Source: an uncultured Cryomorphaceae bacterium (lineage in GTDB: Bacteria > Bacteroidota > Bacteroidia > Flavobacteriales > Schleiferiaceae). From it: DNA of 64,000 nucleotides. A program made the translations under genes and the position numbers. The stretch lies in NCBI GenBank assembly GCA_937120475.1, contig CAKZJV010000007.1, positions 636,068 through 700,067 of the forward strand. The letters run 5' to 3'. Under the pieces are notes generated by a model that did not search any database, was not told where the DNA came from, and saw only the letters and a program-made list of their open reading frames with translations. Positions within the stretch are counted from its first letter, which is position 1. Every line of letters starts with the position of its first letter. This document shows positions 23,676-36,973 of this stretch, piece by piece.

Positions 23676-26183
23676 TTAGCTTTCCTTTTCCAGGTTGGCA
23701 ATAACTTCTTCCCATTCTGTAACCATCAGTTCCACCTTTTCAATGGGTTCCTGTAACTCAGGTGGCATTTTCTGTAGTTCTTTATCATGGTTACCCATTT
23801 TCTGTAAAACCAGGTAGTAGATAGCCGGAAAACGTTGCTGAAGTTCCGGCTCCCGAAGAAAATTAGTGTGGAGGTAGGAATACTGTTTTTTTGCCAAAAA
23901 GAGAGATAGAATACTTACCAAATCTGAAATAATATCATCTTTTACTTGATCAAAAACAATGTTCATATAACCAAAGGCAAGAGGATATTCATCGGCTAAA
24001 ATTAAACTGGTGATTACACCATCCAAACGAACTGGCCAAAACGTAAATTCGTATAAGGTGTCAAATAAATTTTCTGGAGCAATATGTGACAGTTCTTTTA
24101 TTTCTGTTACTAATTCTACGAGCTCTTTATATTTTACTGTTTCATCAGCTAAATATGATAGTGCAAGAAAAAAAATAGCCGCAGAATTTCCTTTTAAAAA
24201 AGCCTCACTAAACAATTCCCTGGCCTGTGAAAAATTTCCCCTAGTCAGTAAATAATAACCATAGTCACATAAAGCTTTAGTTCTATTGACTTCAAGAGCT
24301 TTCTGGTAATATTTTTCAGATTTTACTTCATCTTTAAAACTTAAGAAGTTAGCCAATTTTAAAATTGCTGTAGAGTCTCCTGCCTCATGGGCTTTGAGAA
24401 ATTGATTTTCTGCTTTAACCCATTCATTTTTTCTTATATAAATTCTTCCCAAGGAAGTTAAGGCATGTAAATTTTTATTCTCTTCCCAATCCATAAGAAA
24501 ATAACGTTCGGCATTCGAGTATTTATCCTGAGCTTCATAAATTGCACCAATTAAGAAATAGAGATTATCCGCTCCATAAGTAGTAGCTTTCAACCAATAT
24601 GATTCAGCCAATTCATATTTTTCTAAGTCAAAAGCTAAAAAACCCATGTACTGATTAATATATCGTTGAGTAAGAGAGTCTGACTTTGCTTGTTCAATAA
24701 GAGACTGTAAGTGATCGTAATTCCAAGGCCCTACTCTATTTATTCCTACCTTAATATCCCCAAGTTCACTTTTAATCTTATCAAACCTCTGATTATTAAG
24801 ATATTTATGGATTGAGTTTATGAGTCTCTCCGAATCCGAAGGAAGCATATTTATTACGCCCTTATACTTTCTCATTTTACCAATTAGTTCATCACGCTGT
24901 TTCACATCTATTAAATTGGATGAAGCCAAGGCTTGTGACATCAAAATAGCATGATCTGGCTTTAACGTTCCAGCTTCAATACCTTCCATATGTTTACGTA
25001 AACGGTATTTAAACTCCCGTTTAGTATACAGGGTTTCAATAAAGCTGCTCAACCATTTAGCCTTAAGTTGGTAGCGCCTGGGGGCCTGGGTCATCAGGTA
25101 CCAAATGTTGAAAAAGCGCTCTTCAATGCGGTATAAATGGTTTTTAGTATCCGTAGGTATTTTTTCAATGATGCCGTTCTTTTGCAGCTTATTGAGAAAC
25201 GAAGAAACGGTTTTGCTGGCTAAGCCCAACTCTTTGGCTATTTCCCCGCTGCTCATAGCCTCCCATCTCAAAGCCATAACGTGCACAATGGGCTGCTCCT
25301 GTTTGGAAAGGCTTTGTACCCGTTGAATATAGAGTTCGTTTACCCGGTCCATCAGTAGTTTGAGGTCTTCCACCGAGCCACCCTCGGAATCATCCATCAG
25401 TACCTCAAAAAAAGTGACCAGGGTACGGGGTACACCCCCACAAAGGATACGAATGTTGTCCACCCGCTCCGGTTGAGTTTCCAATATTGAAATCACACCG
25501 TTAGCTTGATGCTTTTTAGCCAGGTGCATTAACAGGTCGTTGGTCTCCTCGCGGTTGAGCTTTTGCAGCTTAATGTTTTTAAAGAACTCGAAGAATGGAG
25601 CTTTATAATCCCCGGTATTTTTACCTATAAAGCGTGCTGAGCCCGCCACTATGCGAATACAATTACTGGTGATCAGTATTTCACGCAAGCGTTGGTGTTC
25701 CTTTTTTTCAAAACGTTCCAGTATCTGGAAGAAATTATCAATGAAGACCACCGCCACCACATCCTGAGCCTTCAGGTTCCTTTCCAGTTCTTCAAAAAGT
25801 GCATCCGAGCCTTTCTCTTTCCTGTCTTCCAGTTTGTCCACCAGGTCTTCAAAGCGTTCATCTTCTTCCAGGTATTCCGCCACACGTTCCCAAAGTATCG
25901 CCAAACCGGTAATCCCGAATTCTTCCTCATTAAATTTACAAGGCACATAATGCTTTCGCAGTTTGGGGTCATTCTGTAATTCATAGGTCAGGCGAAACAT
26001 CAGCGTGGTTTTCCCCATCCCCCGTTTGGCCTCTATTAAAAAATGCTGAGAGGGTTCATTGGTCTGGTCTTCGGCAATCTCGTCCAATAACTTATCATAA
26101 ATATCATTACGGATCACAAAATCCTGGATCAGTTCTGTTCTGTCTTTATGTTGGGGGCGGTATAAATATTCTGCACGGGCCAT
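23676..26183 (-). CDS. AAA/STAND-like ATPase with wHTH and TPR-like repeats
   Basis: The 835-residue protein has a P-loop near the start (A52-KRGMG-K58-T59; the usual first Gly is Ala) and a Walker B strand VVAVVFIDNFF in which the expected catalytic Glu after Asp is Asn. A winged helix-turn-helix lies around 305-345 (SGEIAKELGLASKTVSSFL). From ~480 to ~760 the sequence is a series of ~35-residue helical repeats (AESYWLKATTYGADN, AERYFLMDWEENKN, AENQFLKAHEAGDS), TPR/Sel1-like. This order, NTPase - wHTH - repeat sensor, is that of STAND regulators and defence ATPases. It is the second gene of an operon with the smaller ATPase, 11 bp downstream of it. Confidence 0.82.
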   Translation of the reverse strand: MARAEYLYRPQHKDRTELIQDFVIRNDIYDKLLDEIAEDQTNEPSQHFLIEAKRGMGKTTLMFRLTYELQNDPKLRKHYVPCKFNEEEFGITGLAILWERVAEYLEEDERFEDLVDKLEDRKEKGSDALFEELERNLKAQDVVAVVFIDNFFQILERFEKKEHQRLREILITSNCIRIVAGSARFIGKNTGDYKAPFFEFFKNIKLQKLNREETNDLLMHLAKKHQANGVISILETQPERVDNIRILCGGVPRTLVTFFEVLMDDSEGGSVEDLKLLMDRVNELYIQRVQSLSKQEQPIVHVMALRWEAMSSGEIAKELGLASKTVSSFLNKLQKNGIIEKIPTDTKNHLYRIEERFFNIWYLMTQAPRRYQLKAKWLSSFIETLYTKREFKYRLRKHMEGIEAGTLKPDHAILMSQALASSNLIDVKQRDELIGKMRKYKGVINMLPSDSERLINSIHKYLNNQRFDKIKSELGDIKVGINRVGPWNYDHLQSLIEQAKSDSLTQRYINQYMGFLAFDLEKYELAESYWLKATTYGADNLYFLIGAIYEAQDKYSNAERYFLMDWEENKNLHALTSLGRIYIRKNEWVKAENQFLKAHEAGDSTAILKLANFLSFKDEVKSEKYYQKALEVNRTKALCDYGYYLLTRGNFSQARELFSEAFLKGNSAAIFFLALSYLADETVKYKELVELVTEIKELSHIAPENLFDTLYEFTFWPVRLDGVITSLILADEYPLAFGYMNIVFDQVKDDIISDLVSILSLFLAKKQYSYLHTNFLREPELQQRFPAIYYLVLQKMGNHDKELQKMPPELQEPIEKVELMVTEWEEVIANLEKES

Positions 26184-26194
26184 ACTCTATATTC

Positions 26195-27373
26195 TTAGGT
26201 TAATGCTTTTTTCCACCAGGCAGCTAATAGTGGTGAGGTAAAATGGTAATCTTTTCCTTCGTTATCTGAAGTGATATAACCATCGTTCTCCAGTACATCA
26301 ATAAGCCGGTGATAGTCATGGAGTAGATCACGCGCATCAGCGATGTTCACTATTTCGGCTTTGGATATTTCACCTTTAACGGCTGCATTGTTCAACACAT
26401 CCATAATGAAGCTGTATTCATCTCCTTTGAAAGATCGCCTCAGGCGCGAGAACCAATCCTCAAAATAGTTACGCTTATCCAGGCTTGCGTTAAAGGCCTG
26501 GTCAATCATCTTGTTAGTAATTACTATAGGTTTATCGCTTTCCATCGGCAAGAGGTCGTCACATCCTTCTAAAATTAATTGCACATAAAAAGGCAGCACC
26601 CATTGAAGTTTTTCGATCATATAATCAATTGCCTGTTCAGGAAAATCCACACCCGTGCCTTCCGTTAGCTGTTGCACCAGCGCTTTGGTTTCAAAATCGC
26701 GATACGATTTCATGCGAAAGGGGTTAATATCATTGATGGTCCGTGTGAGATTAATGTTTCCCACTACATTACCAAGACCAATAGAACCTGCGTAAACAAA
26801 TTGTAGCCTACCATTGGTCTCCGGCATTTGTCTTAATTCACGGTTAAGGCTCAGGAATTCCCGGGCTGCAGCCAGATCCTGATCTTCCAGTATGTTTTGA
26901 ATGGTTTGAGCATATTCATCAATCAGCACCAGGTAAGTCTGGTCTGGTTCCAACTTTTTGCAGAGGCTTATGATCTCTTCGTAATAATTGGCCCTTTGAC
27001 TTTCAAACTCAATATTCTGAAGACCTGCGGATTTGATTCCTCGGTCTGAAAACAGTCTTTTGACAGCTTCTGTAATACGACCCTTTTGATCGAGTTCCTT
27101 TACCAGGCTTTCGTAAATACGCTTGAAAAAACTGTTCTGATCGTTAACTGCCTCCGTAATTTCATAGATGGCGGTATAACTGTTTCTCGGGTTTTCCCGG
27201 AGATCCATTAGTATAGAAGTCTTACCAACTCTACGCGGAGCTGAAAGTAAAATATGTTCTCCCGCTTCTATACGATCCCAAAGATTGTTAAGCTCATCTT
27301 TCCGCCTATAGTAGTACCTCCCTTTTACCCAATTACCGGTTTTAGTAATGATACGTTTTCGCTGAAATTCCAT
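26195..27373 (-). CDS. AAA ATPase with C-terminal winged helix
   Basis: The 392-residue product has a P-loop A45-PRRVG-K51-T52 and a Walker B LVLIDEYAQT, both in the style of archaeal-type and STAND-related ATPases (first Gly of the P-loop replaced by Ala, as in its neighbour). The C-terminal ~90 residues look like a winged helix (GEISKAEIVNIADARDLLHDYHRLIDVLENDGYI is the helix pair and wing region). It is the promoter-proximal gene of a two-gene operon. Its start at 27373 lies only 2 bp from an operator-like palindrome, so it may be autoregulated by its own winged helix or by the partner. Confidence 0.82.
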   Translation of the reverse strand: MEFQRKRIITKTGNWVKGRYYYRRKDELNNLWDRIEAGEHILLSAPRRVGKTSILMDLRENPRNSYTAIYEITEAVNDQNSFFKRIYESLVKELDQKGRITEAVKRLFSDRGIKSAGLQNIEFESQRANYYEEIISLCKKLEPDQTYLVLIDEYAQTIQNILEDQDLAAAREFLSLNRELRQMPETNGRLQFVYAGSIGLGNVVGNINLTRTINDINPFRMKSYRDFETKALVQQLTEGTGVDFPEQAIDYMIEKLQWVLPFYVQLILEGCDDLLPMESDKPIVITNKMIDQAFNASLDKRNYFEDWFSRLRRSFKGDEYSFIMDVLNNAAVKGEISKAEIVNIADARDLLHDYHRLIDVLENDGYITSDNEGKDYHFTSPLLAAWWKKALT

Positions 27374-27375
27374 TT

Positions 27376-27395
27376 TGACAAAATTATATTTGTCA
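27376..27395. promoter_or_regulatory. Operator-like palindrome 1
   Basis: Perfect inverted repeat TGACAAA-N6-TTTGTCA, 2 bp upstream of the ATPase start codon. It overlaps the -7 element and the expected transcription start. An identical repeat lies 27 bp upstream. Confidence 0.65.
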
Positions 27396-27424
27396 AATAT
27401 AATGACAAATTTTTATTTGTCAAG
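27394..27424 (-). promoter_or_regulatory. Core promoter of the ATPase operon
   Basis: On the minus strand TTG (27424-27422), 19 bp, then TATATTTG (27401-27394) matches the Bacteroidota promoter TTG-N17-23-TAnnTTTG. Transcription would start near 27388, leaving a ~15-base leader. Both palindromes lie on it. Confidence 0.65.
27403..27422. promoter_or_regulatory. Operator-like palindrome 2
   Basis: Second copy of TGACAAA-N6-TTTGTCA, located between the -33 and -7 elements, offset by 27 bp from copy 1. Arms and spacer length are identical to copy 1; only the spacer sequence differs. Confidence 0.65.
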
Positions 27425-34597: not shown

Positions 34598-35332
34598 TCA
34601 GGCCCTGGCGGGTGGACCGCGCCTGCCCAATGCGCTTTGTAATTCCCGGATGGAAAACGGGAGGTGATGAGTGGTTACCCGAACTGGCTTGACCTGGAGG
34701 AGGCCCAGCAGAAAACGATACAGAAAATGATTATCCGGAAGCTCCTTGAGCAACTGTAGCAGATCGGTGGCACCATCCACATCTGCCAGTTCCTCTAAAA
34801 AGAGAAAGTTACCGTTAATCCGGTCGGCATAATACACCAGGTGCTGCTGAAGACTTGCCGTAAGCCAGGGTAACTGTAAAAACCGGATTTTATGGTAGGC
34901 CTGCCGGGTAAAGCCCAGGAGGTAAACGCCACCGTCACGCGATGGACCAATCACCATTTGATGATCATTGAGGGCTCCAGCGGCCTCCTTCAGATGTTTT
35001 TCGGTAAGCAAAGGTGTATCCGAACCTACACTGATCACTTTTTCGTAGCCCAGCGCAAAAACGTCTTCAATGGCATTGGCGAGGCGTTCGTTGAAATCGG
35101 CACCCCGCTGATCGGTATCGTAGGTTATGATGGTAGGATACCCACTATTACCGAGGGTTTGGCGGGTTTGTTCCAGCAAGGTACCGGCTACCCGGTAATT
35201 ATCGCTTATCGTTCCGGCCGGAAGGAATTTCTTTTCCAATGCTTCATTGCGCGCGGTGCGCGCAAACAGCAGCAGGGCCGTTTTATGGTCCGCACGGTTA
35301 ACGGGCATTACTGGTATATGTGAAAGAAGCAT
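34598..35332 (-). CDS. TIGR04282-like arsenosugar glycosyltransferase
   Basis: The 244-residue protein has the GT-A-like pattern of the DUF2064/TIGR04282 family: NKxxLLLFAR-like start (TALLLFARTARNEALEKKF), the pair VISVGSDTPLLTEKHL, and GPSRDGGVYLLGF, where the SD and DGG motifs are the likely nucleotide and metal sites. In the arsenosugar pathway proposed for Bacteroidota and cyanobacteria such proteins occur beside the radical SAM enzyme ArsS, as here (18 bp downstream of arsS). The exact reaction is not established to my knowledge. A second ATG at codon 9 is possible. Confidence 0.82.
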   Translation of the reverse strand: MLLSHIPVMPVNRADHKTALLLFARTARNEALEKKFLPAGTISDNYRVAGTLLEQTRQTLGNSGYPTIITYDTDQRGADFNERLANAIEDVFALGYEKVISVGSDTPLLTEKHLKEAAGALNDHQMVIGPSRDGGVYLLGFTRQAYHKIRFLQLPWLTASLQQHLVYYADRINGNFLFLEELADVDGATDLLQLLKELPDNHFLYRFLLGLLQVKPVRVTTHHLPFSIRELQSALGRRGPPARA

Positions 35333-35350
35333 CTGTCATTTCAAAAGGCG

Positions 35351-36433
35351 CTAGGTAACTGCACCCTGGCAACTGGAACCGGCTCCGGCCGTACAGCCGT
35401 AGCAATGTTGGTGAATGAATATCGGACGTTTGTTCAGGGCTTCAATGTCAAAATCTTTGATGTGCTGCGATTTGGGAGCCGCTACTTTCATGGCTAGCAT
35501 CTGGTTAAAATCACAGTCGTACATATAGCCATCGTAATCTACCGAAATGGTATTGCGGCACATCACGTTCATAGCGGCCGTAGGATTGAATGCCTGCACC
35601 AGGGTTTCCATGTAATCGTCATAGTTTTCGCTGGCCAGCAGGTAATCCAAAAAGCGTGAGATCGGCAGGTTGGTAATGGTAAAGAGTTCATGGAACTCAA
35701 TATCAAAAAGCTTTTTCAACTCCCGTTTGAAATCGGCTTGTAACTGCTCCTGGTTGCCGGGCAAAAAGGCACCGCTCGGGTTATAGACTAAATCCATTTT
35801 CAGCGGACTATCCGGCATACCGTAACCCACGGCATTCAACATTTTCAACGCTTTGATGGAATCGGAAAAAACTCCCTCTCCCCTTTGGCGGTCGGTTTTG
35901 GCTTTGTTGTAATACGGCAAGGAGGAAATGACGTGTACGTTGTTCTCAGCAAAGAATTCCGGTAAGTCGTAATACTTTTTATTGGCCAGGATGATGGTGA
36001 GGTTGGAGCGAACTATGATGTCTTTCACCCCTATCTTTTTAGCTTCGGTTACAAACCAGCGAAAATCCGGGTTCATTTCCGGGGCACCACCGGTAAGGTC
36101 CAGAGTATGGATATCAGTCTTTTTCATAATATCCAGGATGATCTGCATATATTCACGCCCCATGATCTCACGCCTGTCGGGACCGGCATCAACGTGGCAG
36201 TGCTTGCACACCAAGTTACACATATAACCCAGGTTTACCTGCATGATCTCGATATTAGTAGGGCGTAACGGATACTCCCCCATCTGCTCGATCTTATCTT
36301 TAAAAGTGGGCAGGCTACCGTCCGCAAAATCACCTCCTGAGAGCACTTTCAGTTGCTCTTCAACCTGCGCCAGTTTATGATTTTTCCCTTTGAGGGATCT
36401 TTTACTCTCTTTCTTTTTGGTTTGCACCTCCAT
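35351..36433 (-). CDS. arsS: Arsenosugar biosynthesis radical SAM protein ArsS
   Basis: ArsS is thought to build the 5'-deoxy-5'-dimethylarsinoyl nucleoside precursor of arsenosugars. The 360-residue product has the radical SAM cluster motif C72-x3-C76-x2-C79 (MCNLVCKHCHVDAGPDRRE region), the SAM-binding LDLTGGAPEMNP, and the C-terminal family tail HQHCYGCTAGAGSSCQG, which offers more Cys for an auxiliary site. It lies between a peroxidase-like gene (1 bp upstream) and a glycosyltransferase-like gene. The methyltransferase ArsM that supplies dimethylarsenite is not in the window. Confidence 0.93.
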   Translation of the reverse strand: MEVQTKKKESKRSLKGKNHKLAQVEEQLKVLSGGDFADGSLPTFKDKIEQMGEYPLRPTNIEIMQVNLGYMCNLVCKHCHVDAGPDRREIMGREYMQIILDIMKKTDIHTLDLTGGAPEMNPDFRWFVTEAKKIGVKDIIVRSNLTIILANKKYYDLPEFFAENNVHVISSLPYYNKAKTDRQRGEGVFSDSIKALKMLNAVGYGMPDSPLKMDLVYNPSGAFLPGNQEQLQADFKRELKKLFDIEFHELFTITNLPISRFLDYLLASENYDDYMETLVQAFNPTAAMNVMCRNTISVDYDGYMYDCDFNQMLAMKVAAPKSQHIKDFDIEALNKRPIFIHQHCYGCTAGAGSSCQGAVT

Positions 36434-36434
36434 A

Positions 36435-36770
36435 CTACATTGATAGTTTTTTCACTTTATTCATCATCTGCACCCCGTGTACCAGCGAAGCTCCTCCCCG
36501 TATGGCCCCTGCCACGTGTACCGCTTCCATCATTTGCGACTCGGAAACACCCATCTTCAAAGTATCCTTGGTATAAGCATCAATACAATACGGACATTGA
36601 ATGGCGTGGGATACCGCTAAGGCGATCAAGGCTTTTTCACGGGCGGTGAGAGCTCCTTCTTCAAACACTTTTCCGTACCAGTCGAAAAACTTTTCGGCCA
36701 GTTCGGGTTCAAAATCAGCGATGTCCTTGAATTTTTTGAGGTCTTCTTCCTTATAATAAGGTTTGCTCAT
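36435..36770 (-). CDS. Arsenosugar-associated peroxidase-like (AhpD/CMD) protein
   Basis: The 111-residue protein belongs to the carboxymuconolactone decarboxylase/AhpD fold: TAREKALIALAVSHAIQCPYCIDAYT carries the redox pair C59-x2-C62 with the upstream Glu and downstream aspartate pattern, and MMEAVHVAGAIRGGASL follows. Short single-domain members of this type are found next to ArsS (TIGR04169 as I remember). It is the first gene of a three-gene operon with arsS and the glycosyltransferase. Its role is probably redox protection or handling of an arsenic intermediate; that is inference. Confidence 0.88.
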   Translation of the reverse strand: MSKPYYKEEDLKKFKDIADFEPELAEKFFDWYGKVFEEGALTAREKALIALAVSHAIQCPYCIDAYTKDTLKMGVSESQMMEAVHVAGAIRGGASLVHGVQMMNKVKKLSM

Positions 36771-36973
36771 GCAGATTATTTAGTTTTCACGTTGCGAGAC
36801 AGCCAATGTAAGCGAAAAATGATGAACGCTATCGTCCGGTAGCTTACATTTTACCAAGGCTGTGCCCAGTTTTACTTACGCAGGAGGTTTGGGAATGGAT
36901 TGAGCATGCAGCAATAATTGAGGTGACCATTTTTTTATTGTCAAATACTTTGGCAAAATATTTATTGCCAACC

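Follow-up and report, generated by a model that had tools for sequence, protein, structure and literature searches.

The window, by which we mean the whole 64,000 nt stretch of DNA analysed here, carries on its minus strand two ATPase genes, ATPase-1 and ATPase-2, which are separated by 11 bp and preceded by a Bacteroidota-type promoter with two palindromes (Table 1). On this strand, the TTG at 27423-27421 is followed by N19 and the -7 element TATATTTG at 27401-27394, and the ATG of ATPase-1 is found at 27373, 2 bp from the end of operator O2. The initial annotation described TGACAAA-N6-TTTGTCA as two identical operators, one between the promoter elements and one over the -7/start region. Both copies were recovered with perfect 7+7 arms and a start-to-start distance of 27 bp, and the strand-wise coordinates agree with the placement of O1 between the elements and O2 over the -7/start region. 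Identity holds for the arms, which are the same in both copies, but not for the N6 centres, which differ.

Table 1. Positions of the ATPase operon, its operators and the second array in the window
Feature	Position	Strand	Description
ATPase-2 (P0002, 835 aa)	23676..26183	-	STAND/ORC-like NTPase core, winged helix and TPR array; proposed operator-binding repressor
ATPase-2 winged helix, codons 296-355	25119..25298	-	recognition helix 323-335 (K324), wing 343-349 (K347, N348)
ATPase-1 (P0001, 392 aa)	26195..27373	-	AAA+ ATPase with acidic C-terminal winged helix
Operator O2	27376..27395	-	TGACAAA-N6-TTTGTCA; covers the start region and the final two bases of the -7 element
Bacteroidota-type promoter TTG-N19-TATATTTG	27394..27423	-	read from the sequence; same frame in relatives
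Operator O1	27403..27422	-	TGACAAA-N6-TTTGTCA between the promoter elements; overlaps two bases of TTG
Arsenosugar genes	34598..36770	-	peroxidase-like (TIGR04169), ArsS (TIGR04167), TIGR04282-like glycosyltransferase (below its cut-off)
Second array	36924..36970	.	imperfect palindrome pair with 27-bp spacing; lies 153 bp before the arsenosugar operon

A scan of the window with up to 3 mismatches yielded 9 matches against 4.55 expected, and loose matches therefore carry little meaning. The 3,645,549-bp genome contains two exact copies of the palindrome, both at the ATPase promoter, and four sites with at most 1 mismatch, including these two. Tandem arrays with up to 3 mismatches occur twice in this genome, at the ATPase promoter (site 1) and at the second array of the window (site 2).

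The AlphaFold model of ATPase-1 (mean pLDDT 91.8) has a winged-helix-like fold at its C-terminal end, and its nearest solved folds are PABY2304 (2qen) and SSO1545 (2fna). For the ATPase-2 model (mean pLDDT 83.8), the top Foldseek match was 6mfv, a STAND-TPR structure that we take to be PH0952, with Apaf-1 and Orc1 also near. Alignment of about residues 1-368 by VIA-align gave Z scores of 21.6 for Orc2 (1w5t), 21.2 for SSO1545 and 21.0 for PABY2304, and this region has the AAA+ core with a C-terminal winged helix that characterizes Orc1/Cdc6. TnsC and Orc1/Cdc6 are also among the structural neighbours of the ATPases. The organization of ATPase-2 is that of a STAND protein: R54, G55, G57, K58, T59 and D149 of the nucleotide-binding domain are invariant (Walker A/B); the NTPase and helical domains match the folds of Apaf-1, CED-4, NLRs and Orc; a winged helix follows the helical domain at residues 296-355 in the secondary structure of the model; and TPR profile matches together with the model indicate a repeat sensor, the helical repeats running from the core winged-helix region to the C-terminus. 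The Pfam HTH matches all fall at 290-344, within the core, and no separate DNA-binding effector domain was found among them. The archaeal ATPases SSO1545 and PABY2304 resemble both ATPase-1 and the ATPase-2 core (Z about 21), to which ATPase-2 adds the TPRs; we know of no operator or DNA-binding role for either of them.

Matches to mad8 of MADS defence were weak (2.5e-5 for ATPase-1; 48 of the 56 ATPase-2 members). The neighbour scans covered 109 of the 184 collected neighbour proteins, in which mad2 was found in 4 and mad3 in 2, possibly as cross-hits. A defence island was rejected as a context, since the neighbours of the operon are mixed and give no consistent picture.

Conservation of the array with the operon

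We compared the best 80 of 303 loci from an ATPase-2 search, which come from many phyla. ATPase-1 was detected by tblastn in 75 of these 80, where its match lies a median of 9 bp from that of ATPase-2; ten had no readable ATPase-1 start (absent or cut), which left 70 upstream regions. Palindrome pairs at a distance of 27 or 28 bp, allowing a total of up to 3 mismatches, were present in 50 of the 70 and never in 20 rounds of shuffles, and at least one site was present in 63 of the 70 against a mean of 1.05 in the shuffles. Most of these upstream regions carry two to four TGACAATAAA-like palindromes, usually in 27-bp steps, and the site-to-site spacings peak at 27 and 54; a SAR324 locus (L053) has about ten copies. 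Within the 702,381 bp of the loci, 92 of the 96 palindrome pairs lie on an ATPase-1 upstream region and the other four extend the L053 array.

A divergent set of 20 loci has no 27/28-bp pair. Inspected by eye, these loci show either GTTGGCAAC-like arrays with a 15-bp phase or palindromes of the form GAATTTATTC-N6-GAATAAATTC, apart from a few that show neither type. The upstream regions L022-L037 form a divergent branch with the 15-bp-phased GTTGGCAAC arrays, and L026, L028, L030 and L033-L035 a further branch with the GAATTTATTC-N6-GAATAAATTC palindromes.

An array model, R1, was trained on 30 of the 49 tandem sites, among them the ATPase site of the window. Searched against the window's own genome, it recovered exactly two arrays, site 2 with an E value of 1.9e-10 and site 1 with 5.2e-10, followed by a next match at 0.04; as site 1 belongs to the training set, only site 2 is an independent match. 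Among the genomes of 29 relatives, 25 had matches at E<=1e-4, all of them at the promoter of the homologous operon, and the other four had weaker matches or none; as the training set drew many of its arrays from these same genomes, the informative part is the absence of other arrays. ATPase-1 stands beside the array in 29 of the 30 loci inspected. One genome (G582) has two further, weaker arrays with TGCCAAT-type palindromes, and the one whose neighbour gene was read (L177) precedes another ATPase-1-like gene. The operator thus lies on the operon's own promoter and is kept with the operon (50/70 loci; 25/29 genomes). Recurrence at many unrelated promoters, which according to the initial annotation would point to a global regulator rather than to autoregulation, was not seen in the genome-wide search, and a global regulator was rejected as the main reading because there are one to a few arrays per genome.

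In the ATPase-2 tree the phyla are intermixed, as expected if the operon was transferred and carried the array along. In just 9 of 63 loci does the next gene downstream share the strand and lie within 100 bp, so the cassette usually consists of two genes. This cassette is old, and the array, which is part of it, moved with the operon across phyla. Among 198 relatives, ATPase-1 had a match at E<=1e-3 in 3, the only strong one being its own, and the tandem pattern was found in 7 genomes, where every place outside the window's own genome has 2 mismatches. A search of the genome contig collection with ATPase-1 found no relative.

The promoter elements within the array differ between Bacteroidota and the other loci. 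Loci were assigned to Bacteroidota by record titles and by the phylum group of the window's own genome, which we take to be Bacteroidota in view of its promoter and of gene families such as SusD and TonB plug. TAnnTTTG at N19 was present in 9 of 22 Bacteroidota arrays and in 0 of 33 others (Fisher p 8e-5). TAnnnT at N17 shows the opposite bias, with 20 of the 33 other arrays against 4 of the 22 from Bacteroidota (Fisher p 0.002). Outside Bacteroidota, the frame reads TTGACA-N17-TAnnnT, in which the TTGACA of the first palindrome serves as -35 and the -10 hexamer lies in the spacer; in Bacteroidota, TTG serves as -33 and the -7 element at N19 lies in the spacer, borrowing TTTG from the next arm. 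The promoter type differs from phylum to phylum, and the array is kept. With one operator frame for two promoter types, a transferred cassette could keep its switch under other sigma factors. The 27-bp step amounts to about 2.6 helical turns, which would place neighbouring dimers on different faces of the DNA.

The structural kinship to Orc1/Cdc6 and TnsC, the ten or so copies in L053 and the existence of arrays without the genes might also suit a site that serves replication or movement of the cassette, like an iteron or a transposon end, at which the Orc1-like ATPases would act as initiator or as transposition ATPase. We consider this very improbable and rejected it, because no second array was found off the ATPase-1 upstream regions in the 702 kb of loci, the array occupies a promoter frame where a gene starts, no phage or viral-contig match was obtained at the sensitivities used and ATPase-1 occurs in just 5 of 72,556 plasmid records. 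A phage origin was rejected as well: 50,697 phage records contained no match to ATPase-1, and the viral contigs contained neither an exact array nor a confirmed relative of ATPase-2 at the sensitivities used.

Two plasmids carry related gene pairs. A Moraxella plasmid, which was used in no model, has three palindromes with TAACTATA-like arms in 27-bp steps before the same gene pair, and these are missed by the array model. In the related ATPase pair of the Segatella plasmid H3 (L182 2850-6030), no such array was seen; there the second ATPase has just 298 aa and a WYL-domain gene lies directly upstream.

Candidate readers of the operator

According to the initial annotation, the repressor is probably a protein with a winged helix that the operon itself encodes. 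Both ATPases have a winged-helix-like region. We compared how the columns of the two proteins follow the operator class. The classes were first set by word count; for the final covariation, L022, L025 and L037 were relabelled by hand to class C for their 15-bp arrays, and L084, L094 and L106 were dropped. N348, K347 and K324 of ATPase-2 ranked top for class A versus the TTTGCAA class B, and the same three columns had already been on top before relabelling and dropping. Seven of the top 15 class-following columns of ATPase-2 lie in its winged helix (p=9e-4; 0.0098 in a four-class version of the enrichment test), compared with 4 of the top 15 of ATPase-1, which show no focus (p=0.34; 0.83 with four classes), although classes B, C and D are each a single clade, so that the covariation reflects about three events and the p values overstate it. 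The mean net charge of recognition helix and wing is +3.1 for ATPase-2 (n=103) and -1.9 for ATPase-1 (n=93).

Loci with ATPase-2 but no adjacent ATPase-1 bear on the same question. In Croceivirga (L093), ATPase-2 is accompanied by two operator-like sites 53 bp apart and by TATATTTG; a profile search found no ATPase-1 in this genome, and the 55-position array model had no match in it. Three other such loci had enough flanking sequence. L080 has one site, with ATPase-1 relatives elsewhere in the genome; at L051, a CRP-like gene upstream of ATPase-2 is preceded by two sites with a spacing of 25 bp, and no ATPase-1 was found; L106 lacks a class-A site, and its helix is odd.

Three points favour ATPase-2 as the likely operator binder: the operator class is followed by its predicted reading residues, it has a basic winged helix while that of ATPase-1 is acidic, and sites are kept in a genome in which ATPase-1 was not found. 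The acidic charge, the lack of enrichment of the top ATPase-1 columns in the winged helix and the sites in that genome make it rather improbable that ATPase-1 binds the operator instead, alone or in a complex with ATPase-2, even though ATPase-1 is the first gene of the operon, has a winged-helix-like C-terminal fold and shows the C-terminal column T379 among its top columns for operator class. The earlier proposal that the operon encodes its own winged-helix repressor is thus supported at the level of sequence comparison, with ATPase-2 as the candidate; that the repression would be tight is suggested by the position of the sites.

We propose that the palindromes are probably the operators of a two-gene cassette that regulates itself and moves horizontally, in which ATPase-2 would bind and repress its own operon. 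A dimer of ATPase-2 would contact each 20-bp palindrome with the winged helix that belongs to its nucleotide-switch core. On two phased sites, it would cover the -33/-7 promoter and the start point and keep the operon repressed, until a signal sensed by the TPRs and the ADP/ATP switch released it and both ATPases were turned on. In this scheme we infer DNA binding, dimer formation, repression rather than activation, the signal and the role of ATPase-1. Points that count against it are the small number of events behind the covariation, the 53-bp distance and the missing model match in L093, the state of L080, L051 and L106, site 2, and the arrays in four genomes in which no ATPase-2 core was found. 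We give about even chances to the more detailed version, in which the core winged helix reads the 27-bp-phased array directly, the ADP/ATP state and the TPR signal set its occupancy, and the host promoter is threaded through the fixed frame.

Sequence alone cannot tell repression from activation. The two palindromes of the window lie on the -33/-7 elements and the start region itself, and a protein bound there would block polymerase. This argues against an activator site from which a MalT-like ATPase-2 would turn its own operon on, a reading that we regard as unlikely. It would agree with the presence of one or more extra sites upstream of the promoter at some loci and with the description of bacterial STAND regulators, MalT among them, as activators for the most part (PMC6468293).

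The proposed autorepression by ATPase-2 has partial parallels in known systems. PH0952 and MalT likewise consist of an NTPase core with a winged-helix domain followed by a TPR sensor, and have a separate DNA-binding domain, putatively ArsR-like and N-terminal in PH0952 and C-terminal in MalT (PMC6468293). ATPase-2 differs in that no separate HTH was seen and the core winged helix itself probably reads the DNA. In Saccharolobus islandicus, the Orc1-type AAA+ transcription regulator Orc1-2 binds promoters including its own through its winged helix, an earlier case of such an ATPase at the promoter of its own gene (PMC9738581). It differs from the cassette in being a global regulator of the DNA damage response with a hexanucleotide site, and in having no TPR, no partner ATPase and no phased palindromes. 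The plant NLR Rx1, also of the STAND type, is reported to bind and distort DNA, but it is an immune receptor and is not known to use such an operator (PMC4599002).

In the open part of PubMed Central we found no description of the operator, which is no proof of its absence from the literature. STAND ATPases, to which apoptosome and NLR proteins are related, have mostly been studied as signalling hubs. If the proposal is true, ATPase-2 would need no additional DNA-binding domain for nucleotide state and TPR signal to set its DNA occupancy, and the STAND nucleotide switch could be read out directly, in a testable way, at the operator. The cultured genera concerned are Chitinophaga, Pseudoalteromonas, Marinomonas and Algoriphagus.

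Arrays apart from the ATPase operon

Site 2, before the arsenosugar operon, has a weaker -7 element, AGTATTTG. A genome of the same genus (G002) shares the gene order from a 289-aa ORF to a phosphoesterase with 80-83% DNA identity, and contains neither site 2 nor the ATPase operon. Of 395 genomes drawn from the phylum, 10 had an array match at E<=1e-4. The array occurs together with ATPase-1 in five of them (G000, G404, G286, G202 and G458) and as an orphan in four (G226, G276, G333 and G544); the tenth, G308, has only half of a match, which on visual inspection falls within a coding frame. In the four orphan-array genomes no ATPase-2 core was found, the matches being to TPRs only.

In G276, the array (L188 1501-1553; L218 4670-4904) adjoins a broken, degenerate TPR tail of ATPase-2, and a distant, partial relative of ATPase-1 is encoded elsewhere in the genome; the array looks like a deletion relic of the operon. 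The array of G544 (L189 1501-1553 / L219 6800-6852) adjoins the ATG of a 216-aa ORF, and neither ATPase was found in this genome.

Both site 2 and the arrays in these four genomes without the ATPase-2 core would be expected if a separate regulator encoded elsewhere bound the palindromes and the ATPase operon were only one of its targets. Against this, the array follows the operon through many phyla in one to a few copies per genome, its sequence changes with the predicted reading residues of ATPase-2, and that of G276 adjoins a broken ATPase-2 tail as a deletion relic would; a separate regulator therefore appears quite unlikely to us. We lean towards relics of the cassette as the explanation of the four orphan arrays. 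Site 2 may be either a relic or a recruited target, the former being slightly favoured. The array also marks present or former places of such operons. At the G202 locus (L018), a repeat of three copies (2773, 2970 and 3167) in 197-bp steps lies between ATPase-1 and ATPase-2.
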